Source of the DNA: Salinibacterium sp. ZJ450 | Lineage (GTDB): Bacteria; Actinomycetota; Actinomycetes; Actinomycetales; Microbacteriaceae | Length of the DNA: 64,000 bases | Reading direction: 5' to 3' | Assembly (NCBI RefSeq): GCF_011751885.2 | Contig: NZ_CP061771.1 | Coordinates: 1,860,001-1,924,000, forward strand | Shown here: piece after piece, positions 19,273 through 49,267 of the stretch | Position numbering within the stretch: position 1 is the stretch's first letter | Layout: the number at the start of each line of letters is the position of its first letter | Made by a program: the position numbers and the translations under genes | The notes under the pieces: model-generated | The model's database searches: none | Seen by the model: the letters and a program-made list of their open reading frames with translations, nothing else | Told to the model about the DNA's origin: nothing

Positions 19273-19529
19273 GCGGTCTTCGGTGCCTTGGTCGGCAATC
19301 CGAGGAGCCACTGTTCTAGCGCGACAGCGGTGACGATGGGCTTGCTCCCGACGTAGCGAACTTCGAGCAGCCCCAACTTGATGTGGTCACGGAGCATAGT
19401 CTGCCCGAGCCCGACTGCAGCGGCGGCGTCCGCAATCGAGTACGCAAGCGGTCGCGTGCACGGACTGACTGAGTCCCACGCCTCGGAGGCGCGGTCGGTC
19501 GTGGACATTCGTGTGACGTGGTGGCTCAT
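19269..19529 (-). CDS. xis: Excisionase-type helix-turn-helix protein
   Basis: 86 residues from ATG 19529; a GTG at 19553 is also in frame. Residues about 30-75 form a MerR/excisionase-like winged helix (YSIADAAAAVGLGQTMLRDHIKLGLLEVRYVGSKPIVT). Small proteins of this kind beside a tyrosine integrase direct excision. The box CACGCATAG followed by seven bases and ATG supports a leaderless start. The gene is convergent with int and the two stops overlap by four bases, so their transcripts would be antisense at the ends. Confidence 0.8.
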   Translation of the reverse strand: MSHHVTRMSTTDRASEAWDSVSPCTRPLAYSIADAAAAVGLGQTMLRDHIKLGLLEVRYVGSKPIVTAVALEQWLLGLPTKAPKTA

Positions 19530-19536
19530 GCCCTGC

Positions 19537-19546
19537 CTATGCGTGA
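19537..19546 (-). promoter_or_regulatory. Island promoter box upstream of xis
   Basis: Minus strand TCACGCATAG, then seven bases, then the ATG of xis. The 15 bases GCAGCTCACGCATAG are repeated exactly at 37558-37572 on the plus strand. Confidence 0.5.
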
Positions 19547-19651
19547 GCTGCACGACCGGCTGGGCTCCGAGAGCCTGCGAGCCGGAGGCGCGGGTGAAAC
19601 GAGTTGTCGGTTCTCAGCGAACATGGGACTTGAGTCAGGCAAATCAAGACT

Positions 19652-19697
19652 CCGGCGGCAGCCATGTCCACCTGAAGAGGAAGGTGGCCACCGCCGG
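19652..19697. other. Two-tier hairpin in the 300-base gap between xis and the next gene
   Basis: CCGGCGG (19652-19658) pairs with CCGCCGG (19691-19697), and inside it CCACCT (19668-19673) pairs with AGGTGG (19682-19687). It could be a terminator or a structured leader for the gene at 19831. Nothing else is evident between 19554 and 19830. Confidence 0.4.
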
Positions 19698-19830
19698 AAG
19701 TCGCGCGGGTACCCTTTCTGCCGCGCAGGCGACCGTGCCATCTTTACTCCAGGCCTGCTTCCTTCTAGCTGACGGCCACAGCAGTCGGCTACCTTTACCG
19801 TATGAGAGTGACTCGACCGGACCATAAGGC

Positions 19831-20481
19831 ATGAGCGGCAGGGCTCTCGCAGGACTGGCGACTTTTGTGATCGTGGTCTGGTGCTTCGTCATGCTCGCGT
19901 TCGTAGGTGCACTGTGGGGAGCCGTCGCGTCTGATGCAGGTTGGGGGCCAGCGGGCGGATGGTTCCTTCCCGCCCTCGGACTTTTCCTGATCGGGCAAGC
20001 GCTGGCAGCGGCGGCCAAGCGTAAGGGCGTCAACCCAACCACTGGGGAGGCATACCCCGAGGGTCAGCCCGTAGGAAAGTCCGATCCGACCCGGACCCGG
20101 TTTATCATGGCCGCCCTCCGGCAGATGATCGTAGAAGATCCCGCGGCCACGCAGATTGACGGCATCAACCTCGCGGCGGCTGACGAAATCCTCAGCAGCT
20201 ACCACCAGACCCGAGAAGCAAATTGGGGTGTCCTGTGGCAGGCCGCCGCCAGGACAAGAAGCTTGCCCATGTATGGCAAGCCGCCCTACTGGTCGAACAG
20301 CGGACCCGGCGGGCGTCCTGTGCCGTTGAGCTACCTGGCGTTCTGGGATACTCCGGATCGGATGCGCGCGGTGCGAGACAATATGACCGCCCCGGAGGTC
20401 ATTTCGCTCGCTGCGACCGACCCCGATCGAGCGGTGGCGCAGGTGGCGGCACGCAAGATCTCACTTCGACCGAGTGATTAG
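19831..20481 (+). CDS. Membrane protein of unknown function
   Basis: 216 residues. Two N-terminal membrane segments (LAGLATFVIVVWCFVMLAFV and GGWFLPALGLFLIGQALAAA) are followed by a cytoplasmic domain of about 150 residues rich in Ala, Asp and Arg. No catalytic motif is recognised. It lies next to the int/xis module but faces away from xis. Confidence 0.65.
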   Translation: MSGRALAGLATFVIVVWCFVMLAFVGALWGAVASDAGWGPAGGWFLPALGLFLIGQALAAAAKRKGVNPTTGEAYPEGQPVGKSDPTRTRFIMAALRQMIVEDPAATQIDGINLAAADEILSSYHQTREANWGVLWQAAARTRSLPMYGKPPYWSNSGPGGRPVPLSYLAFWDTPDRMRAVRDNMTAPEVISLAATDPDRAVAQVAARKISLRPSD

Positions 20482-20790
20482 GCGCCCTCGCTCGCAGCCT
20501 GTGATGACGTCGAACGGCCTCGCCTCGTCCCAACGTCAAGTGGTCTCACGTTGCTGCGGAACCTGGTAGCGACAGGAAGTCAGCTCGCACACGAGTGCTG
20601 ATCTCTTGACTAGCCAGGAGCCCGAACCGTCCTACAAAGCGGGGAAAGATCAGAGGCCACCGACCTCGTTTCTCGCGAACGGAAGATCTGATGGGTTTGC
20701 GCAAAAATACAACCACGAGTGCGGGAAGTCTCGACTTCGCTGACAATGTCAGAATGCCCGCGAGACGCTCCCTCCAGCGTTCTCAAAGTC

Positions 20791-21536
20791 TCAACTCCTT
20801 CCAGAAGTCTTGTGATCGCGGAGGACCGACACGAGGGGGCTCGCAGCTGGTCGTCGCTCTCGTAGCTGTCGGAACCGATCAGCCCTCCGTATTGGCCGGC
20901 AAACAACGCCTCGGCTCCGCATGTGAGCACATCGTGGCCACCAATCTCTGGGTGAATGGCCCCGAAGTACCCGTTGACAAAGCTGCCGGGCACCAGCTTG
21001 ATCTCGGGGTATTCCTCGTCCGGCACGGCAGAGGCAGGTGCGCCGTCGGCGCCGCGTTCACGACGAAGCTCGATGAAATCGCGTTCGACGTCGATGATCT
21101 GGGCGCTTCGCATCGCGAAGTGATGGGCGAGCTCATGAATCGCCATCCCGCGGAGATGGCGTCGCGAGACACGACTGTCGAGCACGATCAACGGACCGGC
21201 AAAACTCGCGGCGCGGCCAGAGATTTTGCCCTCGCCGTAAGACGCGCCGTCGGGGGCGACGACGATCGCAATCGGGTCGGTTTTGACCGCGCCGATCCAA
21301 TCAGCTGGGAAATGGCGAAGCGCCTCGTGCAACAAGCGTGCCGCGCTGCGAGTTGAACTCAACGATGTCGAGGGCACCACCCATCGGCCGGGCCTCTGCC
21401 AACGCCGCCGAGTATGCCCGGGAAAGCTTTCGTCGCCACCGAGCTTCGAAACGGGCATAACCGACGTACACGCTCGCAATCGGGCGGCGAGCTGCAGCCG
21501 CTTCTCCTTGTCCAGCAGAACGGCCAGAGCCGCCAA
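20791..21536 (-). pseudogene. MuF-like metallopeptidase fragment with several frameshifts
   Basis: The central part carries a zinc metallopeptidase motif, MAIHELAHHFAMR, followed by VLTCGAEALFAGQYGGLIG, as in the C-terminal peptidase domain of long polyvalent proteins on actinobacterial mobile elements. The typical upstream block ASVYVGYARFEARWRRKLSR is present at about 21400-21480 but in a different frame from both LLDKEKRLQLAARL before it and AARLLHEALRHF after it. At least two frameshifts are therefore needed, and the end near 20800 also looks displaced. Probably not functional. Confidence 0.65.
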
Positions 21537-21954
21537 GCTAGTTCGTCTCGTGTCTCTTCGAACTGGTCATGCTTGCGGCGAGAGGCCCGCCGATAGCCTG
21601 AGATCTCGTCCGCTCGATCCGCAATCCGCCGCCCGTGCCCGGAACGCCGAACGGTTCGCCACCTCGGTCGACCCGAAGATCCTCGCCCTGCCCGCCACGA
21701 CCTGGATCGACAAGCCAGCCGAGAACACCGACGATGAAACCGCCGCGAAAACTAGCCGCCTAAACTCCCGCTGGCCTCATTCACCTCGACAAATTCCGTT
21801 CCAATAGTGTTGTCATGGATGCTCCTTTGTGCCGCCCCACCGCAGTGGCGATTTGCGACGCCGCGAAGTGTGCCACATCGACGATCTGTACGCTAGGTTC
21901 CACTGTCTGCTCAAAGTCTCCGTGCGTCGACCGTCGTGATTCCGGGAAGAGCGT
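21537..21954. other. Intergenic or decayed stretch without a confident gene
   Basis: About 420 bases between the broken metallopeptidase and the zinc-ribbon-like gene. A plus-strand frame around 21601-21807 reads FATSVDPKILALPATTWIDK and looks protein-like, but has no convincing start or family. It may be a further relic. Confidence 0.35.
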
Positions 21955-22425
21955 TCATGCGTACAGGTATGATTCCTTGTAGCGGTAGACGGACGCCCTG
22001 ACGAGCCTTCCACAACTCACGCAGAAGGCGTCTCGCCCGGTGTCAGACATCTCGAAGGTGTTCTGCGTGCCAAGCAGCGTGTCTCTCACCAACGCCTTGT
22101 CGTGAATGCGCTGTTTCAGTGCGGTGACGACGACATCCAGCGCGCTGGGGGTTCGTCCGCATGAGCACACTTCATGTCCGACGGCGGGTATCGTACCGAA
22201 TTCCTTCATGTGGCCCATGGGCAGATCGAGCAGCCCTTCGAGATATCGAAGCTCATCTGGCGGCGTGAGCCTGTATCTCTTATCACTGGTCACGAGGGCA
22301 CTCGCTCTCTCCATTGTCTTGTCATCGAGTACCACCCTCGTGGCGTACCCCTTCGACTTCAGATGGCGCTTGAGCGTGTCGATGTCCTTGAAAACGGCCG
22401 ACTGGGGATCGATGCTGAGTGACAT
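21955..22425 (-). CDS. Zinc-ribbon-like protein of unknown function
   Basis: 156 residues from ATG 22425, which has a strong GGGAGGGA ribosome site. A helical N-terminal part (VFKDIDTLKRHLKSKGYATR) is followed by a Cys pair EVCSCGRT near the middle and a second pair FCVSCGRLV near the C-terminus, enough for one zinc site. I do not recognise the family. Confidence 0.6.
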   Translation of the reverse strand: MSLSIDPQSAVFKDIDTLKRHLKSKGYATRVVLDDKTMERASALVTSDKRYRLTPPDELRYLEGLLDLPMGHMKEFGTIPAVGHEVCSCGRTPSALDVVVTALKQRIHDKALVRDTLLGTQNTFEMSDTGRDAFCVSCGRLVRASVYRYKESYLYA

Positions 22426-22524
22426 GAGGTCCCTCCCTACAAGCAGAAACACTCGGAGCCTAGCAACGATATCCGGATAAAACAGGGTCATGTCGAACTG
22501 ACGTGAAACGCAGGTCATGAAGCG

Positions 22525-23139: not shown

Positions 23140-23185
23140 GCGAATCAATGCGCCCGGTGGCATTCTCCGCGGTGGAGTCAAGTCG

Positions 23186-23202
23186 TCTCGCCAAAGGCGA
23201 GA
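23186..23202. terminator. Two-way hairpin between convergent genes
   Basis: TCTCGCC and GGCGAGA form a 7-bp stem with an AAA loop, between the DUF4145 stop (23139) and the end of the minus-strand gene at 23247. Confidence 0.5.
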
Positions 23203-23246
23203 GCCCCAACACCGAACGCGGCACCGCTACTGGGGCGCGCCGGCTG

Positions 23247-23514: not shown

Positions 23515-24216
23515 TCACGCCGGCGAGTTCAGCGCCTTCGACACGGTCACTCTCGAAACATTGAACAGCTTGGCCAACTCGGTCCCACTGAGGTCGGGCT
23601 CCGCCAGTTTCGCGGCCTTGATCAGCTGAGCCTCGTCGTGAGCCTCGTCGGGGCTCTTGCGTGGTCGCTTTGACCCTGCGGCCTGTCCGGACATCGCCAC
23701 ACGGTCAACAACACGCGCTTTAGCCCGAAGTAGTTCGCGATCGGTGGACGTGGGCGGCGCGACCAGGATGCCGAGTACCTGTTCGGAGGTGCCGAGCACT
23801 GCTACTGGGATGAGCGCGGAGACAACAACAGCGCCAAGGATGCCCCAACCCTCTACCGTGCCTAGCGACGCTGAATGCCAGACGTTTGCACCAATTGAGG
23901 CGCCAGTGAACGTGGCGAGCCACACGTAAGAACCGCGAGTCGACTCGCCGCGCGCTCGGTGCGAGATCGCCCCGAGTCCGAACGCCAACATCGGCGCGTC
24001 GATCGCCAGAGGTACCGCGATTCGCGCCCAACCAGGCAGCCCTATCTGCTCGCCCACCCAGATTTGTGCGAAGCCGGAGATGAGAAACGCGGCAGCGAAA
24101 GAGATCAACGTCACAGCGACGGTGACCTTCACGAACGCACCCGACGTGGGGCTGATGCGCGCTATGGGGCGTTGCGCCTCGGTGGCGATGAGGGTGGGGC
24201 TGTCGAATTTCGGCAC
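23515..24216 (-). CDS. DUF2637 membrane protein with C-terminal helix-turn-helix
   Basis: 233 residues from GTG 24216 (AGGAG seven to eight bases upstream). Four membrane segments (about 25-50, 60-80, 90-115, 120-145) match DUF2637, a family typical of actinobacterial plasmids and integrative elements, where relatives resemble plasmid spread proteins. The last 40 residues form a small DNA-binding helix-turn-helix (GTELAKLFNVSRVTVSKALN). A role in mycelial or cell-to-cell spread, or in partition at the membrane, is inferred from family context. The promoter box at 24249 fits a 25-base leader. Confidence 0.78.
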   Translation of the reverse strand: MPKFDSPTLIATEAQRPIARISPTSGAFVKVTVAVTLISFAAAFLISGFAQIWVGEQIGLPGWARIAVPLAIDAPMLAFGLGAISHRARGESTRGSYVWLATFTGASIGANVWHSASLGTVEGWGILGAVVVSALIPVAVLGTSEQVLGILVAPPTSTDRELLRAKARVVDRVAMSGQAAGSKRPRKSPDEAHDEAQLIKAAKLAEPDLSGTELAKLFNVSRVTVSKALNSPA

Positions 24217-24248
24217 TGTGTCTCCTGTCGTCGGTGGCGCTGCTCCTC

Positions 24249-24258
24249 CTATGCGCGG
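24249..24258 (-). promoter_or_regulatory. Island promoter box upstream of the DUF2637 gene
   Basis: Minus strand CCGCGCATAG, seven bases, then an A at 24241 as predicted transcription start; AGGAG and the GTG follow 10-25 bases later. Confidence 0.55.
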
Positions 24259-26003: not shown

Positions 26004-26013
26004 CCGCGCATAG
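26004..26013 (+). promoter_or_regulatory. Island promoter box for the gene at 26102
   Basis: CCGCGCATAG, seven bases, then A at 26021. The predicted 81-base leader contains the hairpin at 26034-26070 and a TTGGAG ribosome site. Confidence 0.55.
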
Positions 26014-26033
26014 ACGGGATAGCCGCACACAGT

Positions 26034-26101: not shown

Positions 26102-27634
26102 ATGTCTGTTGCGTTTACCTCTGACACCGGCGCTGACGCGCCCCTTCCGACGCTCGATGACCTGCTACGTCGCGTGCTCACTGACCGGGCTGCAGACCCG
26201 TCACCGACTTCCCGGATCCTCGCCACGCTGACACTCGCACTCGATCGGGGCTTCGCCCCCGCTGCTGCTCGGCGTTCCATTCTCAGGCTCGGCTCAGAAC
26301 CGGTTCGCGTTGTCGCACGCTCCGATCGCAGCTGGTACCGACTTGTCAAGGCTGCCCGGTCACACATCGCTCTCGTCGGCTCCTCTGCCTCCACTCCCCC
26401 AGGCCAGCTGCCCGCCGCCCGCCTGCACGTCGCTCGCAGTGTCGTCGGTCACCTCCTCGCCCCGGCCCGGCCCGGGGTTGGTGTGGGTAAGAAGGCCCAA
26501 GTCACCGCGCGTGCGGCTCTCGCTGTTCTCGGGGCACAGACGCTACTCGACGGTCGCGGCTATTCGAATGCGTTGGCCTCCCGCGACTGGCTGGCGCTGC
26601 AAACGAACCTCACACCGGGTAACGCCGGGATCGTGCTCGGAAACTTGGTCAAGCTCGGTTGGATCAAGCGACAGAACTCAACGTCGTTGGGAACCGCCCG
26701 CTGGTCGTTCACGAAACTATCCCGGGACGAGGGAGACCGCGCGTGGGCGTGGGCGGACACGATCGAAACGCTGGCCACCGGCGATTACGGCGCCGACCCG
26801 CTCGCGGAGCTCATCTCGGAGGTCCCGCACCCTGCGTTCGCGTACTCCGAGGTTCTGGGCATGCGCGCTTGGCTCGCAGCGGCAAGCGGCCTCGGTGGAG
26901 TCGACCCCGAGGTGCTCGGGCTGACGAAGCGCTCCGCGCGGGACCTTCGAAGGCGTGTGACGGCGGCGCTGCCGGGTCTAGGAGCGGAGCGGCTTCGTCC
27001 ACAGCTCGATGCGCACGCGGAGGAGAGTCTGGCGATGTTCATCAAAGCGGATCGGAAGACGGATCTCGCGCAGCTCGTGGATGAACGAAACGCCGAGCGC
27101 GCCCGCTTCGCGGCGGAGAAGGCGGAGCGAGCCGAGGACCGCAGCTACGTGCGGAGCCTGCTGCGCGAGGTATGGCCCGCTGTCGGCGACGCACCGGATT
27201 CGGCGTCGACCAGCGAAGACATCGACGCATGGACGGGGCGCGCAGCGCGGTACTTCTCGGGCCCGGGGCGGATCCATGACGCGACCCTGCTACCGGTTGC
27301 GCGTCAGCTGCTGACCTCGACACTCGAACGCCGCGGCGTCCTCATCGAGTTGGCGGCTGACGTCGTACGGCGGGTACTGCCCAAGACGGAGACCGACTAC
27401 ATCGCTTCTGTCGAAGCGGTCGCCGGCTCCGTGCCGGCCAACACCTCGGAGCTCCAAGAATGGACGACCGCAGCAGCCGCGTTCATGTACGGGTCCGGCT
27501 CACCAGCGTTGACGAGCGACCAAGTCATCAATGGGCAACTACTGCTGCGCGAGCAGATCATCGAAGCGGGTCACGCCGAGCGGCATGCAGACCAAGTCGC
27601 GCAGTTCGTGATGCGGCTCGCTGCGGCAGCCTGA
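26102..27634 (+). CDS. Uncharacterised 510-residue protein, possible replication or DNA-binding protein
   Basis: No membrane segment or signal peptide. Residues about 150-210 look like a winged helix (SRDWLALQTNLTPGNAGIVL, then GNLVKLGWIKRQ, a strand and a wing). A charged helical stretch (DERNAERARFAAEKAERAED) lies near residue 340. The position after iteron-like repeats and a leader hairpin, on an element with an integrase but no other Rep candidate, makes a replication initiator conceivable; I see no known Rep motif, so this is a guess from context. Confidence 0.65.
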   Translation: MSVAFTSDTGADAPLPTLDDLLRRVLTDRAADPSPTSRILATLTLALDRGFAPAAARRSILRLGSEPVRVVARSDRSWYRLVKAARSHIALVGSSASTPPGQLPAARLHVARSVVGHLLAPARPGVGVGKKAQVTARAALAVLGAQTLLDGRGYSNALASRDWLALQTNLTPGNAGIVLGNLVKLGWIKRQNSTSLGTARWSFTKLSRDEGDRAWAWADTIETLATGDYGADPLAELISEVPHPAFAYSEVLGMRAWLAAASGLGGVDPEVLGLTKRSARDLRRRVTAALPGLGAERLRPQLDAHAEESLAMFIKADRKTDLAQLVDERNAERARFAAEKAERAEDRSYVRSLLREVWPAVGDAPDSASTSEDIDAWTGRAARYFSGPGRIHDATLLPVARQLLTSTLERRGVLIELAADVVRRVLPKTETDYIASVEAVAGSVPANTSELQEWTTAAAAFMYGSGSPALTSDQVINGQLLLREQIIEAGHAERHADQVAQFVMRLAAAA

Positions 27635-30538: not shown

Positions 30539-31351
30539 ATGGCGCCGCTGATTTCAGACGAAGAGTTTCAGCATGGGCGTGGTCGAGAGATTGCCGCCGA
30601 ATACTTCCCGCTCGTCAGCGAGGGTGTTGAGCCACTCATCGATCGCTTGCAGACGTTCAAAGTGCAGCCACGAAGCTCATTGGCGGGCGATGATCGCGCA
30701 TCGACTACGGACGCCGTCAGTCACCAAGCTCGTGGACTGTTGTCCGTCGGCGCGGACCATATCAAGGCTGTCTCCGACCTCTTGATGAAGGCCGACACAA
30801 TGCCCGCCTTCGCGGGCTTCACGCTGACGCGAAGCGCGCTCGAATGCGCGGGCGTGGCCCTCTGGCTCATTGGTCCCCCCGATCGCGACACACGAGTGCT
30901 TCGCGCAATTCAGCTCTCCAGGGAGTCGTTGAACGATAGTCGTCGACTAGCCGCCACGGCCGCCGGCGCAAAACACCGAGGGCTTGAACCCGACGATCCG
31001 TATCTCAAACAGTTCGAAGAGATGCGTGACGCTCGGCCCAACAATGCTGGCGTGACTCTGTCAGCGCCGTCGATCACTGATCGGCTCGATGCTGCCGAGG
31101 TCTTCGTCATTAGGCACACGCCCGAGCAGGAGACACTCCTGATGCAGTGGCAGCGCACGAGCGGACTCGCGCACGGTCGGCGTCACTCCATCTGGCAACA
31201 CAGCAACGCTCGTCTGCACAGCGCGGACCACATCGGGTTTCAAGTCAGGGTCACCGGAGACCTCGTCGCCCTCACCGCCCACTTCGAGTCAGCGGTGAAC
31301 TACCTTGAGGACGGCATCTCGCTCCTTGAGCAGAGGGGCGCAGCCCCCTAG
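30539..31351 (+). CDS. Uncharacterised 270-residue protein
   Basis: ATG 30539 is preceded by TACGTT and six bases, a leaderless start; the frame extends further upstream without a better start. The protein is largely helical and soluble; ALECAGVALWLIGPPDRDTR and later SGLAHGRRHS recall HEPN-like or DUF5677-like helical proteins, but the resemblance is weak and I assign no function. Confidence 0.55.
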   Translation: MAPLISDEEFQHGRGREIAAEYFPLVSEGVEPLIDRLQTFKVQPRSSLAGDDRASTTDAVSHQARGLLSVGADHIKAVSDLLMKADTMPAFAGFTLTRSALECAGVALWLIGPPDRDTRVLRAIQLSRESLNDSRRLAATAAGAKHRGLEPDDPYLKQFEEMRDARPNNAGVTLSAPSITDRLDAAEVFVIRHTPEQETLLMQWQRTSGLAHGRRHSIWQHSNARLHSADHIGFQVRVTGDLVALTAHFESAVNYLEDGISLLEQRGAAP

Positions 31352-31360
31352 CCGCGCGGG

Positions 31361-31570
31361 CTACCCCGGAATCAGCGCGCCGATGATCGACCCAATGATA
31401 TACACGACGGCTCCAGCGCCGAATATCAAGAGACATCCGAACCCACACCCTCCCATTCCCTGTTTGGAATTGGCTTCGGCGCGAGCTGCTTGCTCGTCTC
31501 GCGCCTTGACCCGCTCAGGGTCAGGGCGGGCCGCAGGGCGCTCGGAGTATGGTCGCGGCTCGTCAGGCAC
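31361..31570 (-). CDS. Small one-TM protein
   Basis: 69 residues from GTG 31570. Charged, Pro/Arg-rich N-terminus, then a Gly-rich membrane segment (GCLLIFGAGAVVYIIGSIIG). The G of its GTG is the last base of the TAG of the upstream small gene, so translation is probably coupled. Confidence 0.55.
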   Translation of the reverse strand: MPDEPRPYSERPAARPDPERVKARDEQAARAEANSKQGMGGCGFGCLLIFGAGAVVYIIGSIIGALIPG

Positions 31571-31755
31571 TAGACGGTCTCAACCACTGCAACCAGTTGA
31601 ACGCCCATCGCCAGGCTTGTGAAGGTGATGCTGATCGAGACGATCCGCACGGCCGGATAGACCTCAAGCTCCTTGTAAAGCTTTGCGACCGCCTTCTCAA
31701 CGGTCCCGCCGGAGTTGTCGATCACGATGATGTTCTGCTGGGGAATCAAAGGCAT
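31570..31755 (-). CDS. Small protein, first gene of a two-gene operon
   Basis: 61 residues from ATG 31755. TACTAT followed by six bases and the ATG is a near-ideal leaderless promoter. Sequence IIVIDNSGGTVEKAVAKLY suggests a small alpha/beta fold. Family unknown. It overlaps the next gene by one base. Confidence 0.55.
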   Translation of the reverse strand: MPLIPQQNIIVIDNSGGTVEKAVAKLYKELEVYPAVRIVSISITFTSLAMGVQLVAVVETV

Positions 31756-31856
31756 GCCCGAATAGTAATGGCTGCTTGTGACCCCGCACACACACACCCT
31801 GGGTCGCGAGCGAGTCTCTGCGCTCGGAACTCCAAACCGGGGACGCGGAACTACTG

Positions 31857-32161
31857 GCGGGCCGGCGCCCCGGTGTTCAACGACGTCGACGCGGTTGCCG
31901 ACGTGCTGCCAGGCGACGCAGCGCAGCCCGAGGCAGTACTGCTCGCCCAAGAGCGCCGCCGACAGGTCAGGGCCGCCGTCGCGGTGCTGCCGGATCGGGT
32001 CCGGCGGCGTGATCGAGCTTCTCCACTGCGGGGACACGGAAGTGCGCGTCGGTGAGTTTGCCGAGGCGCTCGGGGTCAGCCACTCCGCCGTTTCGCAGTT
32101 GCGATCGCAGGGACTGGCGTTACTCCGTCAGAGGCTGAGCCACTACGAGCTGGTGGCGTAG
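31857..32161 (+). pseudogene. Sigma-70 region 4 fragment, frameshifted (copy 1)
   Basis: Reads APVFNDVDAVADVLPGDAAQ and QERRRQVRAAVAVLPDRVR, then after a frameshift near 32005 continues VIELLHCGDTEVRVGEFAEA and LGVSHSAVSQLRSQGLALLR. This is the region 3-4 linker and region 4 helix-turn-helix of a FliA/SigB-type sigma factor. Regions 1-3 are absent. A second copy lies at 33772. Confidence 0.7.
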
Positions 32162-33771: not shown

Positions 33772-34017
33772 CGCCGACCACAGCCCAACCCGATCACGCG
33801 CTGGTCGCCAGTGAACGTCGGGACCAAGTCCGCCGCGCCGTCGCTGCGCTGCCGGATCGAGTTCGTGTCGTGGTTGAGGCGGTGTACGGGGACGAGCGGA
33901 CCATGGGTGAGGTCGCTGAAGAGCTCTGCGTCACGCACTCGGCGGTGTCGCAGTTGAGGGCGCGCGGGCTGGCGCTCCTGCGCTCGCAGCTCGCGGCATA
34001 TGAGCTCGCGGCGTAGG
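33772..34017 (+). pseudogene. Sigma-70 region 4 fragment (copy 2)
   Basis: In one frame after a TAA at about 33769, without a start codon: SERRDQVRRAVAALPDRVRV, then GEVAEELCVTHSAVSQLRAR and GLALLRSQLAAYELAA, stop at 34017. It is clearly paralogous to the fragment at 31857 and covers only region 4. The candidate RNA module A starts three bases later. Confidence 0.7.
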
Positions 34018-34019
34018 TC

Positions 34020-34149
34020 CTCGGGATTCTGAGCGATCGCCGCGCACAAGCTGGACATGCCGCCCCGCGACGCTCCAGTGGGGTCGGCGTGTATGTGGTG
34101 GTGAAGGGCGGCCGGGCTCCTGAGGTTTATTGGGGGCCCGGCCGCTTCA
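34020..34149 (+). ncRNA. Candidate small RNA gene, module A
   Basis: Contains the box CCGCGCACAA (34040-34049), seven bases, predicted start A at 34057, a first hairpin (GCCG-CCCC with GGGG-CGGC, about 34059-34088) and a second hairpin with a perfect 10-bp stem GCGGCCGGGC (34108-34117 with 34136-34145). No gene follows on this strand. Module B at 36755 shares the promoter and first hairpin. A 15-codon frame starts at the predicted A of ATG, but the differences between copies change its amino acids. Confidence 0.5.
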
Positions 34150-35478: not shown

Positions 35479-35836
35479 CGGTCAGAACCTTCAGTTCATC
35501 CATTCGCTCCACAGTGCTGAAACCGGTGATCAGATTCACCGCTCCAAGCGCCCCCGCCGCTATCCCTAGCGCGAGCAGCGGGATCGACACCGCAAGCACA
35601 ACCGATCGCCGGACGCCGCGACTCGGTTTCCGCTGAGTTCGAACGCCGGCCGCCTCGTCATCGAGACGAGCCTCGTCTCGCTCGGCACCGGCCCAGCCCA
35701 CCCGGGGCGGTCGCGCATTGAACGCCCGGACGTACGCGATCTCATACTCAGTCAACGACCATGGCCAGCCGCCCTCAGGCTGGACATTGACGCCGCGCAC
35801 GGGCGCAATGGATATGTCTGGCACAGATTCCCCCAC
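35471..35836 (-). CDS. One-TM protein, operon partner of the 188-residue protein
   Basis: 121 residues. A cytoplasmic N-terminal part with a Trp-rich block (GGWPWSLTEYEIAYVRAFNA), then a membrane segment (VVLAVSIPLLALGIAAGALG) and a short tail. Family unknown. It overlaps the downstream gene by eight bases. Confidence 0.58.
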   Translation of the reverse strand: MGESVPDISIAPVRGVNVQPEGGWPWSLTEYEIAYVRAFNARPPRVGWAGAERDEARLDDEAAGVRTQRKPSRGVRRSVVLAVSIPLLALGIAAGALGAVNLITGFSTVERMDELKVLTDE

Positions 35837-35915
35837 GATGCTTTCCGGTCATCCTAGCGGCGGAGATGAGGGCACGTCGGTAACTGGGGTTCCGGCCTGT
35901 ACGGCGTCCGGAGAC

Positions 35916-36602
35916 CTAGACCCAGAACTCAGGTGGAGGCCCAAAGGCCCGCCGGCTCGCTCGGATCGCAGCCTCCGCCATCAGCAGATTGGCGCCCGCT
36001 CCGATGACAGCGCCAATGCCGAATGGGACCACCTTGCCGAGCACGATGATGCCCTGCTTGGTGCCGTACTTGGTGATGAAGTTCTTTCCCAGCACGCTGT
36101 TGATCTGGTTCAGTCGCGACATAGGGACCTTAGCGACGATTTGCTTGGCCCAGTGTTTGCCCGACCGCTCCGCCATCTTGCCGATGGTTTCGGCACCACC
36201 ACCGCCGAGCACGATCCCCATCACGAGGGTCCGGCGGCGCTCCAGCTCGTGAAGCTGAACCCCATGAATCTGGGCGAGCGACAAGGCGAAAAGCGCGGTC
36301 AGCTCCAGCGATGTGAGAGCTTCACCACCCGAGATCGCGAGCGCCGCCCCTGTGCCGACTCCGGGCGCGGCAGCGACGGCGCCAACCGCCGCTCCGGTAC
36401 CGGATAGAGCGCTCCGATACATCATCTCCAAGGTTCGGATGACCTCGGCCGGTGTGGCATCAGGGTGCCGCTGACGTGCACGAGCGAGGTTCTTCTCCAC
36501 CGCCGTCGTCTGAACGCTAAAGGCCTTATCGAGCGCAGCGCGGGCAAGACTCCGCCATTCCACGGACGACGGTTCGTCGTCGGCGGGCGTACTGTCTGGC
36601 AT
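35916..36602 (-). CDS. EcsC-like/actinobacterial conserved protein
   Basis: 228 residues from ATG 36602; TAGTCT followed by six bases and the ATG is a leaderless start. The sequence resembles a conserved actinobacterial family similar to EcsC: ATPAEVIRTLEMMYRSALSG, GTGAAVGAVAAAPGVGTGAA and the C-terminal FITKYGTKQGIIVLGKVVPF. Gly/Ala-rich amphipathic segments suggest membrane association. The role is unknown. EcsC proteins are linked to ABC exporter function in Bacillus, which need not apply here. Confidence 0.65.
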   Translation of the reverse strand: MPDSTPADDEPSSVEWRSLARAALDKAFSVQTTAVEKNLARARQRHPDATPAEVIRTLEMMYRSALSGTGAAVGAVAAAPGVGTGAALAISGGEALTSLELTALFALSLAQIHGVQLHELERRRTLVMGIVLGGGGAETIGKMAERSGKHWAKQIVAKVPMSRLNQINSVLGKNFITKYGTKQGIIVLGKVVPFGIGAVIGAGANLLMAEAAIRASRRAFGPPPEFWV

Positions 36603-36754
36603 GCACACAGACTAGAGCTATCTTCACGGCTACGGCGCCAGCGACAAGCCCGATGACGCGGAGAGCCGCTCCGAGCGAACCGCGGCCGGGGACGACGTCG
36701 CGGCCGCCGACGCGCTCGTCGACGAACGCTTGCCTCGATCGGCCACCTACGCCG

Positions 36755-37259: not shown

Positions 37260-37683
37260 GCCGTAATCGTGGCCGAGAGCTGAGGCAACGGCAAGTGGCG
37301 CCGCGGGGCGATCACTGCGAAGGCCACCTGACCTCTACTGAGGCGCCCGGCGAGAACCCCGCCGGAAGGCACCGTCGAATGGTTGACCCCTTGGAAGCGC
37401 CCTGCCTGCAAACCCAGAACACCCGACTGTTCAACGCAAGCTGCCAGGAACGGCCGCGCGCCGACAGGCCCCGTTACGACCAGCGGTTCGTTAGCGGGTC
37501 GCCCGACGTGTGCGTCCCCTTGGCGGCGCACTCAGCACGCGGATTCCAGCCGGGTCAGCAGCTCACGCATAGACCCGGTACGCGCCACGGCTGAACTGTG
37601 CGTCCCCCGCACACATACCAGTCATAGCCGCGGAAAACGGTTCGGGATCGGCTCGAACGCGCGGCGTAGTGATCGGAGATCGA
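37260..37683 (+). promoter_or_regulatory. Gene-free leader region with an island promoter box
   Basis: The 15-mer GCAGCTCACGCATAG at 37558-37572 is identical to the one before xis; seven bases later is an A (37580), giving a predicted 104-base leader for the gene at 37684. The leader can form CGGCT/AGCCG and TGTGCG/CGCACA stems (37588-37630). A long plus-strand frame covers the region but its Arg/Pro-rich composition is shadow-like. Confidence 0.4.
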
Positions 37684-40333: not shown

Positions 40334-40354
40334 CGTATGTGTCCCCTGCCATAT

Positions 40355-40364
40355 CTATGCGCGG
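40355..40364 (-). promoter_or_regulatory. Island promoter box for the gene at 40333
   Basis: Minus strand CCGCGCATAG, seven bases, then A (40347) followed directly by GGGG, which then serves as the ribosome site for GTG 40333. This is a short-leader case of the box. Confidence 0.55.
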
Positions 40365-41283: not shown

Positions 41284-41293
41284 CCGCGCATAG
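41284..41293 (+). promoter_or_regulatory. Island promoter box upstream of the 32-codon gene
   Basis: CCGCGCATAG, seven bases, then ATG 41301. Confidence 0.55.
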
Positions 41294-41300: not shown

Positions 41301-41399
41301 ATGACGACCACAGAACAACCGACCGGTATTGCCGGTCAAAAGACCGCCGCCTCAGATCCGTATGATTCTGCGGCCACTCATCCGGCACAACTTAGGTGA
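41301..41399 (+). CDS. Predicted 32-residue leaderless peptide
   Basis: MTTTEQPTGIAGQKTAASDP and twelve more residues, stop at 41397-41399. It is supported mainly by its ATG sitting exactly at the predicted transcription start of an island promoter box, and by its position 39 bases before the recombinase gene. It might be a leader peptide for that gene or a short protein of its own. Confidence 0.4.
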   Translation: MTTTEQPTGIAGQKTAASDPYDSAATHPAQLR

Positions 41400-41438: not shown

Positions 41439-42009
41439 GTGTCTCAGATCTACGGCTACGCACGGGTCTCCCGCGGCGACTCCCAGAGCCTCGACCGGCA
41501 GATTCAGGAACTCACTGCTGTGGGTTGCACGAGGATCTTTACCGATGAGCTGAGCGGAGGCCGCGCTACCGAGAGCCGCCCGGGTTTTGCTGACGCGATC
41601 AGCCATCTGCGAAGCGGGGACGTCCTCGCAGCTGTGAGCCTCGATCGACTTTCCAGGTCGCTCGGAGACTTGATGGGAACGGTCGATGACTTGGTGCTGG
41701 AACGGGGTCACGGTGCGGGTGCTCAACCTCGGGGATCTCGACCCGCGTTCACCGTTGTCGCGGGTACTCCTCCAAGTGCTGGGCGCCGTTGCCGAACTCG
41801 AACGCAGCCTAATTCGTGAGCGCACCGTGAGCGGCATGCGCGCCGCAAAACAGCGAGGCGCTCGCATCGGCAGACCCGCGTCCCTCACGCCCGAACAGCT
41901 AAAGGCGGTCTTGGCCATGCGAGCGACCGGACAGTCCGCTGCTGCGACCGCCCGGGCCTTCGGCGTCTCTGAGCGCACGATCAGGCGCGTCTCTGAGGCG
42001 GCATCGTGA
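41439..42009 (+). pseudogene. Serine recombinase (resolvase/invertase family), frameshifted
   Basis: The N-terminal resolvase domain is complete with nucleophile context YARVSRGDSQSLDRQ (the Ser in VSR) and LDRLSRSLGDLMGTV. At about 41704, in a GGGG run, the frame breaks after DDLVLERG and resumes one base off as VTVRVLNLGDLDPRSPLSRV, continuing through AELERSLIRERT to the C-terminal helix-turn-helix (SAAATARAFGVSERTIRRVS). Joined, it is a normal-length (about 188 aa) DNA invertase-type recombinase. It would act on short inverted or direct sites; none is evident beside it. Confidence 0.8.
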
Positions 42010-44605: not shown

Positions 44606-44765
44606 CACCCCCGTAGTCGATCCCGGGCTGGGCGCGGGTGACCGTGGAGGCTTGGGCCAAGGCGCTGTCGAGGGTCGTGTAGCTGCCGCCGACGAGGTCG
44701 GGACCGGTAGTGGTTTCGGAAGAGTGGGAGTAGAGGATTCCGTACTCGGTCGGTTTGGATGTCAT
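44586..44765 (-). CDS. Small 59-residue protein, leaderless
   Basis: Begins MTSKPTEYGILYSHSSETTT and continues GPDLVGGSYTTLDSALAQAS. Its ATG (44765) is placed exactly seven bases after the promoter box at 44773. Codon use is gene-like and the C-terminus is basic (DDARKR). No homologous family comes to mind. It heads a probable three-gene minus-strand operon ending at 44211. Confidence 0.5.
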   Translation of the reverse strand: MTSKPTEYGILYSHSSETTTGPDLVGGSYTTLDSALAQASTVTRAQPGIDYGGDDARKR

Positions 44766-44772: not shown

Positions 44773-44782
44773 CTATGCGCGG
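44773..44782 (-). promoter_or_regulatory. Island promoter box upstream of the 59-codon gene
   Basis: Minus strand CCGCGCATAG, seven bases, then ATG 44765. Confidence 0.55.
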
Positions 44783-45289: not shown

Positions 45290-45321
45290 CTCATGATGGG
45301 CGAGAAATGACCGCTCTATGC

Positions 45322-46210
45322 TCAGATGGCCTCGACTGCCTCCGCGATCGAGATCACTTCAATGTCGGCGGGGGCGTCGTCTGCGACAACCACGAGCCCA
45401 CTGCCGATCAGCTCAGCCACTGCCCCGTTAATCTGCGCGGCCACGCCCGCAGATGCCAGCGATGCTCGAACGAGAGCCCGCCCAGCGGTGAACTCCGCAA
45501 CAGTCGAGAGATCCGCGGTTTCAGCGAGAGACGCCGCCGACTCCCCTAGATCCGCGATACTGCGGTGTAGCTCGTTGTCAGGGTCGAAGATCGGGATCGG
45601 CAGCCTCCACGGCAGCGTGTCGATATCGCGGGCTCCAAATAGCCCACGCGACTGGAGCTTGATTACTCGATCCATCACTACATCGCTGTTGAGAATTGCT
45701 GCCAGGTAGTGCCCCTCGCTCACACCCGCGACCGGCATCCAGTACAGCTTGTGCTCGACAACCGCATCTGCATCTGTCACATACGCGGCCGCGATGCGGT
45801 TACCGGAGGCCGAGTACACGACTCGATGGGTTTGGCCGGGGAGCTGCCGCTTCAGAGTCCCTTGGTAATTGAGTCGCTGGCTGAGCTCGATGCGGGAGGC
45901 ATCCGTTCGATTGGTCAACCTTGTCGAGTTGCGCCCAGCGCTTCGCGAGAAGTGGATAGTTCGCCATTTGCGACGGGGTCAAGATCTTGCCGTCAAAGAT
46001 CGGCAGTACCGCCTTCTCCGGCCAGACGACACGGTAGGGCACAACGGACGAACTCAGCAGGACCGTCTTCACGAACTGCTGCTCAATTGGTCCTTCGACG
46101 CTCTTCAGGCTCTTCCACGGCTGCTTCTCTTGCGTGGTTCTCGAACTGATCACATCTATTGTTCCCGCCGGGAGACCGAGGGGTCCGGCAGGCAATTCGT
46201 AATGGTTGAC
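45322..46210 (-). pseudogene. C-terminal remnant of an N6-adenine DNA methylase/restriction protein, frameshifted
   Basis: The upstream frame reads FVKTVLLSSSVVPYRVVWPE and ILTPSQMANYPLLAKRWAQL; the frame then shifts near 45915 to SQRLNYQGTLKRQLPGQTHR, YSASGNRIAAAYVTDADAVV and SEGHYLAAILNSDVVMDRVI. This is the target-recognition part that follows the catalytic domain in large N6 methylases (type IIG/IIL or related). The methyltransferase core itself is absent. Together with the EVE-HNH gene it indicates a former restriction locus. Confidence 0.65.
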
Positions 46211-46323
46211 AGGAGGACACGAGCACTATTCACACAGGATTCCGCTGAGCCACCGGGCCCACGCACTCATCCACAAACCCCGCGATCCGATCAACATCTG
46301 CCAACCGGTGGCCAGCCGCCGCC

Positions 46324-47268
46324 TCACGGACGTCGTCCAGCAAGGAGCTCGCGAATGGCATAGGCCCAGTAGTCGATCTCGATGCGGAGCCGAGACCGCC
46401 AGCCGAACTTCCAAGCCGACTGGCCCACGTAGTGGTTCCTGTAAGGATGGCCGCGATCGAGCTCGCAGCGCCAACATAATTGCGCCGGAGTGCGGAGTCG
46501 GTGGCCACAATCCGGACACGCCGAACGAGTCAGCCGGATGCTCTCAACGACGCCAACCGCCCAGAAATCGGCGTCCAAGTCTGCTGCCGTGCCGCTCCAG
46601 AGCGCCGCGCGCTGACCAATGGCGGCGTCCGTCATTCCTCTCCATTCTGACCAGATTGGATCGCCGGCACGTCGCGCTCGCAGTGTCTCCGCGTAGTGCT
46701 TGACCACATAGCGTTCGCCGTCTGCGATGACAGTGAAGCGGCCGTGATCTTTGTTCCCGATGCTCTGTCGCGCCCCGGCAGATGCCGACGCGAGGTGAAC
46801 CCGGCGCGGGTAGAGCTTGCGCCGGAACCGGCGTTGGTTTCGCTTTCGCCGCAGCAGCCAGCGAAGCTCATGCTTTGGGCTGCCGAGCAGTGGCGCCACG
46901 CGGTGATCCCACGCACAGAGCACCGAGACCCATCCGAACGCGTCGCGCAGGCGGCCACGGCGGCCACAAACCTCGCAGATCCGGCCGCCGGCGGCTTCGA
47001 ATGCCGCCACGACGGCCGCCGCGGCCTCCCGATCCTCTGGGTGCAGTGCCGCCGAGTACAACGTCAGGCGGCCCATCTTCTCGCGTGCGTTCACCATTCG
47101 CCAGCTCGGTGCGGCCGCCCGCCCCGCAGAATCCGCCGCCGTTACAAGCGCCCACCACCCCTCAGCGCATTCCAGTTTGACGCCGGCCAGCACCGTTGGG
47201 TCCGACGCGATCGCCGCGATGACGCGCCGCACCTGCTTCGTCGGCCGCCTGGTTCGATATTCACCCAT
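46324..47268 (-). CDS. Zinc-finger protein of unknown function
   Basis: 314 residues from ATG 47268, which lies seven bases after an island promoter box. Two Cys pairs in the middle (ICEVCGRRGRL) and near the end (ACPDCGHRLRTPAQLCWRCE) form at least one treble-clef-like zinc site. The part between is basic (RRKRNQRRFRRKLYPRRV) and could bind nucleic acid. No family recognised. Confidence 0.62.
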   Translation of the reverse strand: MGEYRTRRPTKQVRRVIAAIASDPTVLAGVKLECAEGWWALVTAADSAGRAAAPSWRMVNAREKMGRLTLYSAALHPEDREAAAAVVAAFEAAGGRICEVCGRRGRLRDAFGWVSVLCAWDHRVAPLLGSPKHELRWLLRRKRNQRRFRRKLYPRRVHLASASAGARQSIGNKDHGRFTVIADGERYVVKHYAETLRARRAGDPIWSEWRGMTDAAIGQRAALWSGTAADLDADFWAVGVVESIRLTRSACPDCGHRLRTPAQLCWRCELDRGHPYRNHYVGQSAWKFGWRSRLRIEIDYWAYAIRELLAGRRP

Positions 47269-47275
47269 GCATCGC

Positions 47276-47285
47276 CTATGCGCGG
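47276..47285 (-). promoter_or_regulatory. Island promoter box upstream of the zinc-finger gene
   Basis: Minus strand CCGCGCATAG, seven bases, then ATG 47268. Confidence 0.55.
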
Positions 47286-47370
47286 CAAGCCCGGCCCACA
47301 TGCGCCATGACTGTCTTCGCGGCGCCAAGGAGTCGCGTTCGCCGCATCTGCCATTGGCGGAGGTGTCACT

Positions 47371-48237
47371 ATGAGAATCAGGTTCGAGAAAGTCCAGGAG
47401 GCGCTCGGCGTCGCGGTCACAAGCTTGACGCTCGGTGCAGCGGCGTTGCTCTGCGCGCTCGCGGCGATCGACCCCGGCACCAGCCTCGGCTGGGATCCCA
47501 GGTATCCGCTGTCGGTCGCCCTCGGTGGCCGCGGCGGCGATATCGAAGTCGGGCTACCCATGGAGATTCGTGACGTCGAGCCCCTTGCCGGCGAGCTCTA
47601 CGCCGGGGCTAGGGAGACGCTCGACGACCTCGGCTTCACTGGCCGGCTCTACATTGACGACGAGGCATGTCTCGGTTCGAGCAGGACTGCACTCGCGTGC
47701 GCCGAAATAGACGGCGGCAGCATCTGGCTCCGACCCAGCGTCGTCGCCCCCAATGACAGGTGGGTCTTCGCCCACGAATTCGTCCACATTGAGACCAGCA
47801 CGTCGGAGCACGAATGGCTAGTAGCGAATTCGTCTGAAGTCGGATGGTCCTCGACCTCGTGGGGCTGGGGCAACTCCTCAGTAGAGGGCGCCGCAGACTG
47901 TGGCGCGACGATTCTGCTCGACGGTCTGATTCCCGGCTCATCGGCCGACGCGGCACACGGAGAGTGCTCACCGTTCGAACTCGAAATCGCCCAGAGGGTG
48001 CTCCACGACACACTCGCAGACCAATCGTTCAACGAGGTCTACGACAGCTTCGTCGAGCGCCGTACCCCACAGGTGACAGCGCTCGCGCATGCCTTAGGTT
48101 ACTCGGGCGCGGTCAAACTCGGCCCCGTCCAGGTCTCCGGCACTGAGCCCCTCTGGCTCCGCTTCGACGTCGCCGACGACGACGTCGCCCAAGCCCCGCT
48201 GTCGGAGTTTGAGAGTATCGATGCGTTCGGGAGGTGA
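47371..48237 (+). CDS. Membrane-anchored HExxH-type metallopeptidase-like protein
   Basis: 288 residues with GGAGG before ATG 47371. An N-terminal membrane anchor (VAVTSLTLGAAALLCALAAI) precedes an extracellular domain containing the zinc-peptidase motif VFAHEFVHIETS (His-Glu-x-x-His) and a downstream SVEGAADCGATILL that could supply the third ligand. Two Cys pairs may be disulfides. Protease activity at the cell surface is likely but the substrate is unknown. Confidence 0.68.
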   Translation: MRIRFEKVQEALGVAVTSLTLGAAALLCALAAIDPGTSLGWDPRYPLSVALGGRGGDIEVGLPMEIRDVEPLAGELYAGARETLDDLGFTGRLYIDDEACLGSSRTALACAEIDGGSIWLRPSVVAPNDRWVFAHEFVHIETSTSEHEWLVANSSEVGWSSTSWGWGNSSVEGAADCGATILLDGLIPGSSADAAHGECSPFELEIAQRVLHDTLADQSFNEVYDSFVERRTPQVTALAHALGYSGAVKLGPVQVSGTEPLWLRFDVADDDVAQAPLSEFESIDAFGR

Positions 48238-48252
48238 GGTGACTTGGAACAG

Positions 48253-48744
48253 TTAGAGCAGCCCGCAATCGATCTGCCGGAGTGAGCGAAGGCTGCGGAC
48301 CAAGCCGCACTCCCCGAGCGTCGCGATCACCGACACACCCTCGCAGTCAGGCAGGTCGCGGTCGTAGAGGAGGAACTGATCCTCAGTCAACAGGAGCGGG
48401 ATATCCGGCCGCGGCCAATCCCACGCGATCTCTGGCACAGGTTCCCCGATGCCGCGCACCGCGAAAAGCGCCTCGACGACCGTCGGCAGCTCAGTCTCCG
48501 GGCTCCACCTCTCGTTATCGGTGAGTTCGACGAGCAATAGTGCCTGCGAGAGGGTGGCTATGCGAGCGGCGATGTGGCCCCGCGCGGCCCATCGTGCGTC
48601 ATTATCGGCGCTCGCGAGGTAGTGGCCGGGGAAGTACGCTTCCAACAGCGATCCGTAATCTGGTGCGAGGAATGCTTCACCAGTTGGCAATCGCCCCCAT
48701 AACAGGCGTCCCTCGGGCACTCGATCTGGTAACGCGGGCATCAT
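48253..48744 (-). CDS. Uncharacterised protein, second gene of a coupled pair
   Basis: 163 residues from ATG 48744, overlapping the stop of the upstream gene as ATGA. Sequence includes PEGRLLWGRLPTGEAFLAPD and a C-terminal EGVSVIATLGECGLVRSLRS. No membrane segment. Probably made together with, and acting with, the upstream protein. Confidence 0.6.
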   Translation of the reverse strand: MMPALPDRVPEGRLLWGRLPTGEAFLAPDYGSLLEAYFPGHYLASADNDARWAARGHIAARIATLSQALLLVELTDNERWSPETELPTVVEALFAVRGIGEPVPEIAWDWPRPDIPLLLTEDQFLLYDRDLPDCEGVSVIATLGECGLVRSLRSLRQIDCGLL

Positions 48745-49250
48745 AGGTAGCCCCATTCGAGGAGCCCGACGGGTACCCGCGCGAGCGAGTTCAGAAGCGC
48801 CGATGTCGTGATGGAATCCAATGACTCGACAGCACCATGCGTGCGCCGGGGCCAATGATGGCGGCACACAAATAGGGGCGGTTGCCCGGCAGGCCACGCC
48901 CCCGGAGCGTTCATTAGCATCGTGCCACGGGACGCGGTCAACGCGTCTTTGATCCACTGAGGCTGGTCAAGCGACCAAGCGGGGTCGTCTCCCCCACCTC
49001 GCGCCCATTTCTCGACGACGGCGGCCTGGAGATCATCTGCGCACCGCTCGGCGATGAGCCGACGAACGCGTATTTTCTCGGCGGCGCTCGCCGAGGAGTC
49101 GTAGCCGGGGAAGATCCCCGCCAAAAGCTCATCGGCCGAGGCAGCCACCGCGAGTTGATTGTCGGCGAGCGATCCGTCGACCCACACTGCATTGCGAGTC
49201 CGCTGTGGTCTGCGCAGCGGGCGCTGTTCTCCGGGAGTGTCGTTGTCCAT
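48741..49250 (-). CDS. Uncharacterised protein, first gene of a coupled pair
   Basis: 169 residues from ATG 49250, seven bases after an island promoter box. Soluble, with QWIKDALTASRGTMLMNAPG and a C-terminal SALLNSLARVPVGLLEWGYL. Both this and the next protein resemble actinobacterial proteins of unknown function in length and composition. Translationally coupled to the gene at 48253 by a four-base overlap. Confidence 0.6.
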   Translation of the reverse strand: MDNDTPGEQRPLRRPQRTRNAVWVDGSLADNQLAVAASADELLAGIFPGYDSSASAAEKIRVRRLIAERCADDLQAAVVEKWARGGGDDPAWSLDQPQWIKDALTASRGTMLMNAPGAWPAGQPPLFVCRHHWPRRTHGAVESLDSITTSALLNSLARVPVGLLEWGYL

Positions 49251-49257
49251 GACACAC

Positions 49258-49267
49258 CTATGCGCGG
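49258..49267 (-). promoter_or_regulatory. Island promoter box upstream of the coupled pair
   Basis: Minus strand CCGCGCATAG, seven bases, then ATG 49250. Confidence 0.55.

Follow-up and report, generated by a model that had tools for sequence, protein, structure and literature searches.

A -10-type box shared by a Salinibacterium island and Microbacteriaceae megaplasmids, with a divergent sigma-like family as its candidate reader

The stretch of Salinibacterium sp. ZJ450 DNA analyzed here (64 kb, called the window throughout) contains an integrated element of 31.85 kb lying between two 42-bp repeats, one of which is the 3' end of a tRNA-Met gene. This island carries a tyrosine integrase, a small helix-turn-helix (HTH) protein that is an excisionase (xis) candidate, and a series of short boxes of the form CCGCGCATAG, which are the subject of this report (Table 1). 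An initial annotation of the window had listed eleven copies of the box, each followed by exactly seven bases and an A, and had proposed that in seven of them this A opens an ATG; we found all eleven where they had been listed, with the spacing intact in 11/11 and an ATG at the predicted +1 in 7/11. Seven copies are the exact 10-mer, two are the variant TCACGCATAG and two the variant CCGCGCACAA, and all of them, the four variants included, lie inside the tRNA-Met island. The accompanying statement that the chromosomal arms hold no copy has to be narrowed, as the bare 10-mer occurs there once (11573, + strand) and CCACGCATAG once (16970, - strand), neither with an A at +1.

To judge these counts, we simulated the window 150 times with each of two Markov models, of order 1 and order 3. 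The pattern CCGCGCATAG-N6-Y-R was observed seven times, compared with simulated means of 0.03 (order 3) and 0.05 (order 1) and a maximum of 2, and CCGCGCATAG-N7-ATG was observed four times and in no simulation of either order. Looser searches showed mild enrichment, both for the 10-mer with one mismatch and no spacing condition (14 versus 7.66) and for the 18-base pattern with two mismatches (36 versus 25.35). When the eleven window sites were aligned with five from a second island of the same genome, base -1 was a pyrimidine in 11/11 window sites and in 16/16 overall, and +1 was A in 14 and G in two, which is the usual YR start. No -35 element was visible among these 16 sites, as the initial annotation had also found.

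We searched for the box genome-wide and in related elements, as had been proposed for checking it, using the reversed pattern as the control for site counts. In the Salinibacterium genome, a single contig of 3.83 Mb, we counted 14 exact box-N6-YR sites versus 5 control sites: seven in the window island, five at 2.463-2.502 Mb and two elsewhere. The region at 2.46 Mb is the second island, where a large serine recombinase is encoded along with a small resolvase. Much higher counts were found on megaplasmids of Curtobacterium that span 546-608 kb: 79 versus 0 on pCPAA3 of Curtobacterium pusillum AA3 (567 kb), 83 versus 0 on pS16 of Curtobacterium sp. MCSS17_016, and 75 versus 1 on D40 (NZ_CP126274.1) of Curtobacterium sp. 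MCBD17_040. All 79 sites of strain AA3 are on pCPAA3. In Rathayibacter iranicus (G301), 13 of 15 sites (3 control) fall on the plasmid-like contigs C19, C20 and C24, and homologs of pS16 conjugation-region genes are present on two of these three; Rathayibacter contigs found separately in public collections are from this same genome, with identical site positions. The box is therefore not specific to the island, contrary to the initial annotation, and marks a major class of promoters on the Curtobacterium plasmids and the Rathayibacter contigs.

Among 398 genomes of the family, the full pattern followed by ATG gave 33 sites in 23 genomes versus 8 controls (own genome 6, G301 5, G418 2, single sites 20), so that the 397 other genomes contributed 27 sites, 20 of them single, against the same 8 controls; a looser form, GCGCATAG-N6-Y-ATG, showed no excess in 98 relatives (13 sites versus 14 control). 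Scans of public collections led to pCPAA3, the Rathayibacter contigs and an IMG/VR contig, while the other matches listed (contigs and 110 viral stretches) were mostly single sites in unrelated organisms, which look like chance occurrences. The virus-listed contig, IMGVR_UViG_2867207765_000001 (94.5 kb, 19 sites), appears to be a piece of plasmid D40, because the three site pairs checked (G437 1876/15207/20437 against D40 419124/432455/437685) are all 417,248 apart, and a phage origin of the box was dropped on taking it for a plasmid piece.

The megaplasmids provided enough copies to examine the geometry of the box with no condition placed on the presence of a start codon (104 copies on pCPAA3, 105 on pS16). 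A purine occupies +1 in 98/104 and 97/105 copies, respectively, and an ATG or GTG begins exactly at +1 in 46/104 and 43/105, compared with 0-13 and 0-15 copies at any of the other 29 offsets between 0 and 29. Of the sites with a purine at +1 that are not leaderless, 35/52 on pCPAA3 and 36/54 on pS16 have, in the next 75 nt, a Shine-Dalgarno-like sequence and a start codon with an open reading frame (ORF) of 40 codons or more, compared with 1/52 and 4/54 in upstream control stretches; the smaller sets, in which the signal was weaker, gave 7/15 (control 1) for G437, which is part of D40, and 5/9 (control 0) for Rathayibacter contigs C19 and C20 together. In an unbiased 7-mer scan of positions -14 to -8 relative to possible starts on pCPAA3, GGCATAG and CGCATAG ranked first. 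These data indicate that the box is almost certainly a promoter with its start at +1, in line with the common transcription start signal that had been proposed.

The core sits in the register C-12 A-11 T-10 A-9 G-8, with G at -13, and A-11 T-10 A-9 G-8 make it a -10-type element. Because T is avoided at -7 (4/98 on pCPAA3, 5/97 on pS16), and with C rather than T at -12, it is not the TANNNT of SigA promoters. A weak -35 can be discerned on the plasmids, with C at -33 in 66/104 and 80/105 copies and G at -31 in 57/104 and 61/105 (pCPAA3 and pS16, respectively), while among 37 pooled island and Rathayibacter sites no upstream column other than -19 and -18 exceeded 0.25 bits. On pCPAA3 we also observed a second leaderless class, C-GGCATAG-N7-[AG]TG, with 28 sites and C at -30 in 27/28; it appears to be a sister class of promoters that shares this core, and perhaps belongs to a paralogous sigma.

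The variants differ in how they fare on the plasmids. The form CCGCGCACAA is supported by plasmid copies, with an ATG or GTG at +1 in 5/5 on pCPAA3 and 4/8 on pS16; its two window copies lie within visibly duplicated sequence and so were counted as one event. A start codon at +1 is also found in a few plasmid copies of the neighboring forms TCGCGCATAG and CCACGCATAG, whereas TCACGCATAG has a start codon there in 0/1 on pCPAA3 and 0/1 on pS16.

By comparing the box-bearing elements, we found a protein family, with members mostly of 277-307 amino acids, that is the best candidate for the factor reading the box: a divergent sigma-70-like family on the megaplasmids that the Pfam models of regions 2 and 4 miss. 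Shorter relatives are present on pS16 and pCPAA3. PF04542 (region 2) at E<=0.01 had no match in G437 and on pCPAA3 matched solely the FliA gene, and a scan of seven family members at E<=1 found no region 2. Sigma70_r3 (PF04539) was matched in 3/7 of these members at E 0.0045, 0.0063 and 0.019, all below the curated cut-off. Alignment with hhalign to a FliA alignment was collinear (probability 71, E 3.9e-5, 190 columns; probability 81, E 1.2e-5, 127 columns), and weak matches of profile A4 in G000, G417, G418 and G347 (E 0.02-0.3) fall on FliA or principal-sigma genes. We also built AlphaFold2 models of two members, 26% identical, from two-sequence alignments. The 50 best PDB matches of each model in Foldseek are all, going by their titles, sigma factors or chains from RNA polymerase complexes that contain a sigma; at E<=0.001 there were 14/259 matches for the first model (best 7.5e-5) and 0/152 for the second (best 1.4e-3). 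The region 2 of sigma-E bound to -10 DNA aligns on the model at 2.5 Å over 90 residues (Z 9.3). None of these lines is proof alone, but their combination makes a divergent sigma the best reading of sequence profiles and models. A small conserved protein is encoded just before the sigma-like gene (pS16 476872-477288, G301 C20 16765-17169) and is also listed for the G162 element; it is reminiscent of the actinobacterial mIHF.

The distribution of the family follows that of the box in part. Sigma-like genes accompany the box in the G162 island (E 4.9e-5), on the three Curtobacterium megaplasmids and in the Rathayibacter contigs. A family-wide scan with the first profile, in which no more than five candidates were scored for each genome, found them in 4/398 genomes. 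Four further sigma-bearing loci were picked by profile: G250 C5, G118, G250 C1 and G271. In the first two, chosen by their sigma-like gene alone, the pattern TCGCGCATAG-N6-Y-ATG occurs at 2 and 1 sites, respectively, compared with 0 in 100 order-3 simulations of each, at distances from the sigma-like gene of ~4 kb (G250 C5) and ~11 kb (G118). One such promoter in each opens a homolog of the same pS16 conjugation-region gene, and GCATAG-N7-ATG starts this gene in 4/6 homologs (G250, G118, pS16 and pCPAA3); it was not seen at the Rathayibacter and G437 homologs, for which uncertain starts were used. Elements that have conjugation-region homologs (the plasmids, the Rathayibacter contigs, G162, G250 and G118) also have the sigma-like gene, while islands without such homologs have promoters only (the window island, the second island, G418, G417 and G347). 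Helpers and satellites would be expected to show such a split.

Our main reading, to which we assign a probability of roughly 60%, is that Microbacteriaceae mobile elements share a private sigma/promoter system, perhaps usable in trans by islands that lack the sigma. In this system, CCGCGCATAG-N6-Y-R would be the -10 region of a class of promoters used by these elements alone. RNA polymerase would start at the +1 purine, which in about half of the transcripts would be the first base of an ATG or GTG, leaving them leaderless, while most of the others would begin with a short leader that includes a ribosome site. The specificity factor would be the divergent sigma-70-like protein (pS16 477285-478130, its orthologs and its paralogs), reading the GCATAG core; we consider it fairly probable, with considerable room for doubt, that this candidate reads the box. 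The dedicated sigma factor or activator suggested by the initial annotation thus finds its best explanation in a sigma, but one probably not encoded in the window island, because the candidate-sigma profile finds no homolog in the island or the genome.

Both Salinibacterium islands carry the promoters, and neither the sigma nor the tested conjugation-region homologs were detected there. Such islands, xis candidate included, would be switched on when a sigma-bearing element enters the cell, and we suggest tentatively that they depend on the sigma in trans. The fuller picture is one that we find slightly more doubtful still: a transcription channel of the plasmid's own, with ~80 promoters, about half of them leaderless; islands as satellites that use the plasmid promoter, also at xis; and a previously unrecognized sigma family that profile libraries miss. 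In this picture, satellite islands would wake, excise and move only on arrival of the plasmid, hijacking the sigma factor of their helper. Apart from papers containing the ten letters, which were left aside, the literature searched held no description of the box, of the plasmid sigma or of sigma hijacking by an island.

Several observations weigh against this interpretation. As to the protein, matches of PF04545 (region 4) at E<=1 on pS16 and D40 miss the sigma-like genes, the AlphaFold2 models are of low confidence (mean pLDDT 64.8 and 53.3), the second has no Foldseek match at E<=0.001, full-length TM-scores are ~0.2-0.4 for both, and the best VIA Z of 11.5 falls short of the ~13 advised by the tool for models of helical proteins. 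As to co-occurrence, two of the four new sigma-bearing loci, G250 C1 and G271, are without the box; in G271 the sigma-like gene is broken, and neither boxes nor conjugation-region homologs were found. Conversely, in the window genome, with at least 12 boxes in two islands, scoring of all 31 first-look candidates gave no homolog of the sigma-like protein, and five of the ten examined elements with at least two exact sites lack the sigma: the window island, the second island, G418, G417 and G347. There is no sign of autoregulation, because no GCATAG occurs in the 250 nt upstream of 7/7 sigma-like genes. Finally, the satellite reading is weakened because the box at xis is the variant TCACGCATAG, of which neither pCPAA3 nor pS16 has a promoter-like copy.

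Genomes in which no candidate sigma was detected (G000, G418, G417 and G347) have box-bearing islands, which also fits the principal alternative. Here the box would be read by a host factor that mobile elements exploit, either SigA aided by an activator or an alternative sigma conserved on the chromosome. That the many-box elements found are all in Microbacteriaceae would agree with such a factor, the genome scans having been made mainly within that family. However, the rest of the 4.5-Mb AA3 genome, including the one chromosome checked, has no copy of the exact pattern beside the 79 sites of pCPAA3; 12/14 sites of the Salinibacterium genome are confined to its two islands; and the -12 and -7 positions are unlike those of SigA promoters. 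We therefore regard a host factor as unlikely, although it is the strongest competitor to a sigma encoded by the mobile elements.

Considerably less probable is that the box, instead of being a sigma contact, is an operator set at constant spacing from the start and bound by a repressor or activator that acts across the plasmid. The KorA sites of IncP plasmids are an example of a plasmid-wide operator, and ~80 copies per plasmid, contiguous conservation over 10 bp and a weak -35 would suit one, but the box is asymmetric and in fixed register to +1, its A-11 T-10 A-9 stand at the place of a sigma-70 -10 element, and the second promoter class combines the same GCATAG core with an upstream element of its own.

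We also weighed the FliA/WhiG-type sigma (P0001) of the plasmids, which we consider very improbable as the box factor. FliA/WhiG promoters combine a GCCGATA-type -10 with a TAA-type -35. Like them, the box has ATAG in the register of the flagellar -10 of the Salinibacterium genome, TGCCGATAG; P0001 or a close relative is present on all three Curtobacterium plasmids, and a FliA region-4 remnant in the window island (E 6e-12) could be a trace of it. Two such decayed, region-4-only pieces were observed in the island, at 33780-34001 (+), just upstream of the box at 34040, and at 31888-32146 (+), the latter frameshifted. Unlike FliA/WhiG promoters, the box has C-12, G-13 and no CTAACG -35: four flagellar sites of the Salinibacterium genome read CTAACG...TGCCGATAG, not CCGCGCATAG. 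Moreover, boxes are present without a close FliA in Rathayibacter (G301), G418 and G347. In 3/4 annotated plasmid loci inspected, FliA belongs to a flagellar operon (D40, Pseudarthrobacter and pS16, but not Arthrobacter zg-Y1110), and the FliA-bearing plasmids of Arthrobacter zg-Y1110 and Pseudarthrobacter have 0 boxes; FliA was rejected on these two grounds. Long flagellar clusters with their own FliA were seen on large actinobacterial plasmids (pS16 349-363 kb, D40 572-592 kb, and NZ_CP061722.1). An extracytoplasmic function (ECF)-type sigma on D40 (111835-112542, - strand; PF04545 E 3.8e-6) was dismissed as the shared factor because it was not seen on pCPAA3 (PF04542) or pS16 (PF04545), and no plasmid-encoded RNA polymerase is annotated on pS16 outside 335000-349788 in the annotation table, which is incomplete.

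In shared-gene screens, the window island had in common with the plasmids the FliA piece and proteins of the CoiA-like, AlbA-like, TraR/DksA-like and DUF2637-HTH kinds, with the sigma-like family not among them. A megablast of window positions 17000-41900 against plasmids gave no match. The DUF2637-HTH protein matches, at E 2e-8, the profile of a pS16/pCPAA3/Rathayibacter family common to the megaplasmids, and the box-driven 314-amino-acid protein is 31% identical over 93 amino acids (E 9e-9) to a pS16 protein annotated as TraR/DksA. The window island had no match to nine ORFs of the pS16 conjugation regions (three of them antisense), and none of 28 Pfam-scanned window proteins was named conjugative, although no search was aimed at a relaxase or oriT. 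A small serine resolvase, split by a frameshift (41439-42009, + strand), is ~44% identical over 96 amino acids to the resolvase of the second island, whose gene has a box at its start. An EcsC-like protein (35916-36608, - strand) matches the candidate defense family PDC-S29 at 1.5e-14; this was the sole PADLOC match among ten island proteins apart from a weak HNH. Partial copies of the tRNA-Met attachment repeat lie outside the element at 14118-14140 and 16683-16724, as if left by earlier insertions.

Table 1. Features of the window island and locations of sigma-like genes on other elements
Element	Feature	Position	Strand	Details
Window	attL-like direct repeat of tRNA-Met 3' end	17714..17755	+	40/42 identical to 49565-49606
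Window	Tyrosine integrase of element	17911..19272	+	Pfam Phage_integrase 5.7e-11
Window	Small HTH protein, xis candidate	19269..19529	-	ATG = predicted +1; Pfam HTH_17 E 0.0029, below cut-off
Window	Box variant TCACGCATAG	19537..19546	-	Predicted +1 at 19529 = ATG of xis candidate
Window	DUF2637 + C-terminal HTH protein	23515..24216	-	Pfam DUF2637 7.1e-5, HTH_11 3.9e-5, below cut-off
Window	Box	24249..24258	-	Predicted +1 at 24241; GTG of DUF2637-HTH gene after 25-nt leader containing AGGAGA
Window	Box	26004..26013	+	Predicted +1 at 26021; 81-nt leader, then 510-aa gene 26102-27634
Window	Box variant CCGCGCACAA	34040..34049	+	ATG at predicted +1 (34057); no ORF of >=25 codons from that ATG
Window	Box variant CCGCGCACAA	36775..36784	+	ATG at predicted +1 (36792), 45 codons; duplicate of 34040 module
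Window	Box variant TCACGCATAG	37563..37572	+	Predicted +1 at 37580; 89-nt leader, then GTG 37669 (262 aa)
Window	Box	40355..40364	-	Predicted +1 at 40347; 14-nt leader, then GTG (41 codons)
Window	Box	41284..41293	+	Predicted +1 at 41301 = ATG of 32-codon ORF, upstream of frameshifted serine resolvase
Window	Box	44773..44782	-	Predicted +1 at 44765 = ATG of 59-codon ORF
Window	Box	47276..47285	-	Predicted +1 at 47268 = ATG of 314-codon ORF (46324-47268)
Window	Box	49258..49267	-	Predicted +1 at 49250 = ATG of 169-codon ORF
Window	tRNA-Met, 3' end = other attachment repeat, right element border	49565..49639	-	ARAGORN; repeat
pS16	Sigma-like gene	477285-478130		Full-length
pS16	Sigma-like gene	35568-36410		Full-length
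pCPAA3	Sigma-like gene	249371-250402		
pCPAA3	Sigma-like gene	359678-360535		
D40	Sigma-like gene	55256-56158		Via G437
Rathayibacter C20	Sigma-like gene	15924-16847		
Rathayibacter C19	Sigma-like gene	30999-31832		

If the proposed system is borne out, CCGCGCATAG-N6-YR would be a simple, searchable signature of mobile-DNA gene expression across a bacterial family, the box would place the 5' ends of many plasmid genes that lack annotation, and a sigma family overlooked by profile libraries would be exposed. It might also supply an orthogonal promoter/sigma pair for actinobacterial genetics. Were the satellite reading true as well, the hijacking of a helper's regulator, known for an activator, would extend to a sigma factor.

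Two known systems offer the closest comparisons. SigN (ZpdN) of the Bacillus subtilis plasmid pBS32 is a plasmid sigma that directs RNA polymerase to a plasmid regulon (PMC6751061), and as a large, low-copy plasmid with its own sigma and regulon, pBS32 is the nearest precedent for what we propose. Unlike SigN, our candidate has diverged beyond the reach of the Pfam region 2 model, and unlike pBS32, the megaplasmids carry ~80 box copies each and share the promoter with integrated islands. The second system is the chromosomal island SGI1, whose xis promoter answers to AcaCD, the master regulator of the helper IncA/C plasmid, while int is independent of it (PMC4605294). The window island, with its integrase, HTH_17 xis candidate and 42-bp attachment repeats, may be an element of this type, and in parallel to the regulation of SGI1 it has a box variant at the xis candidate and 0/11 sites upstream of int. 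It differs in that its xis box is a variant, that AcaCD is an activator and not a sigma, and that its dependence on a helper is suggested by analogy; with these differences, the window island may stand to a sigma-bearing megaplasmid as SGI1 stands to its IncA/C helper.

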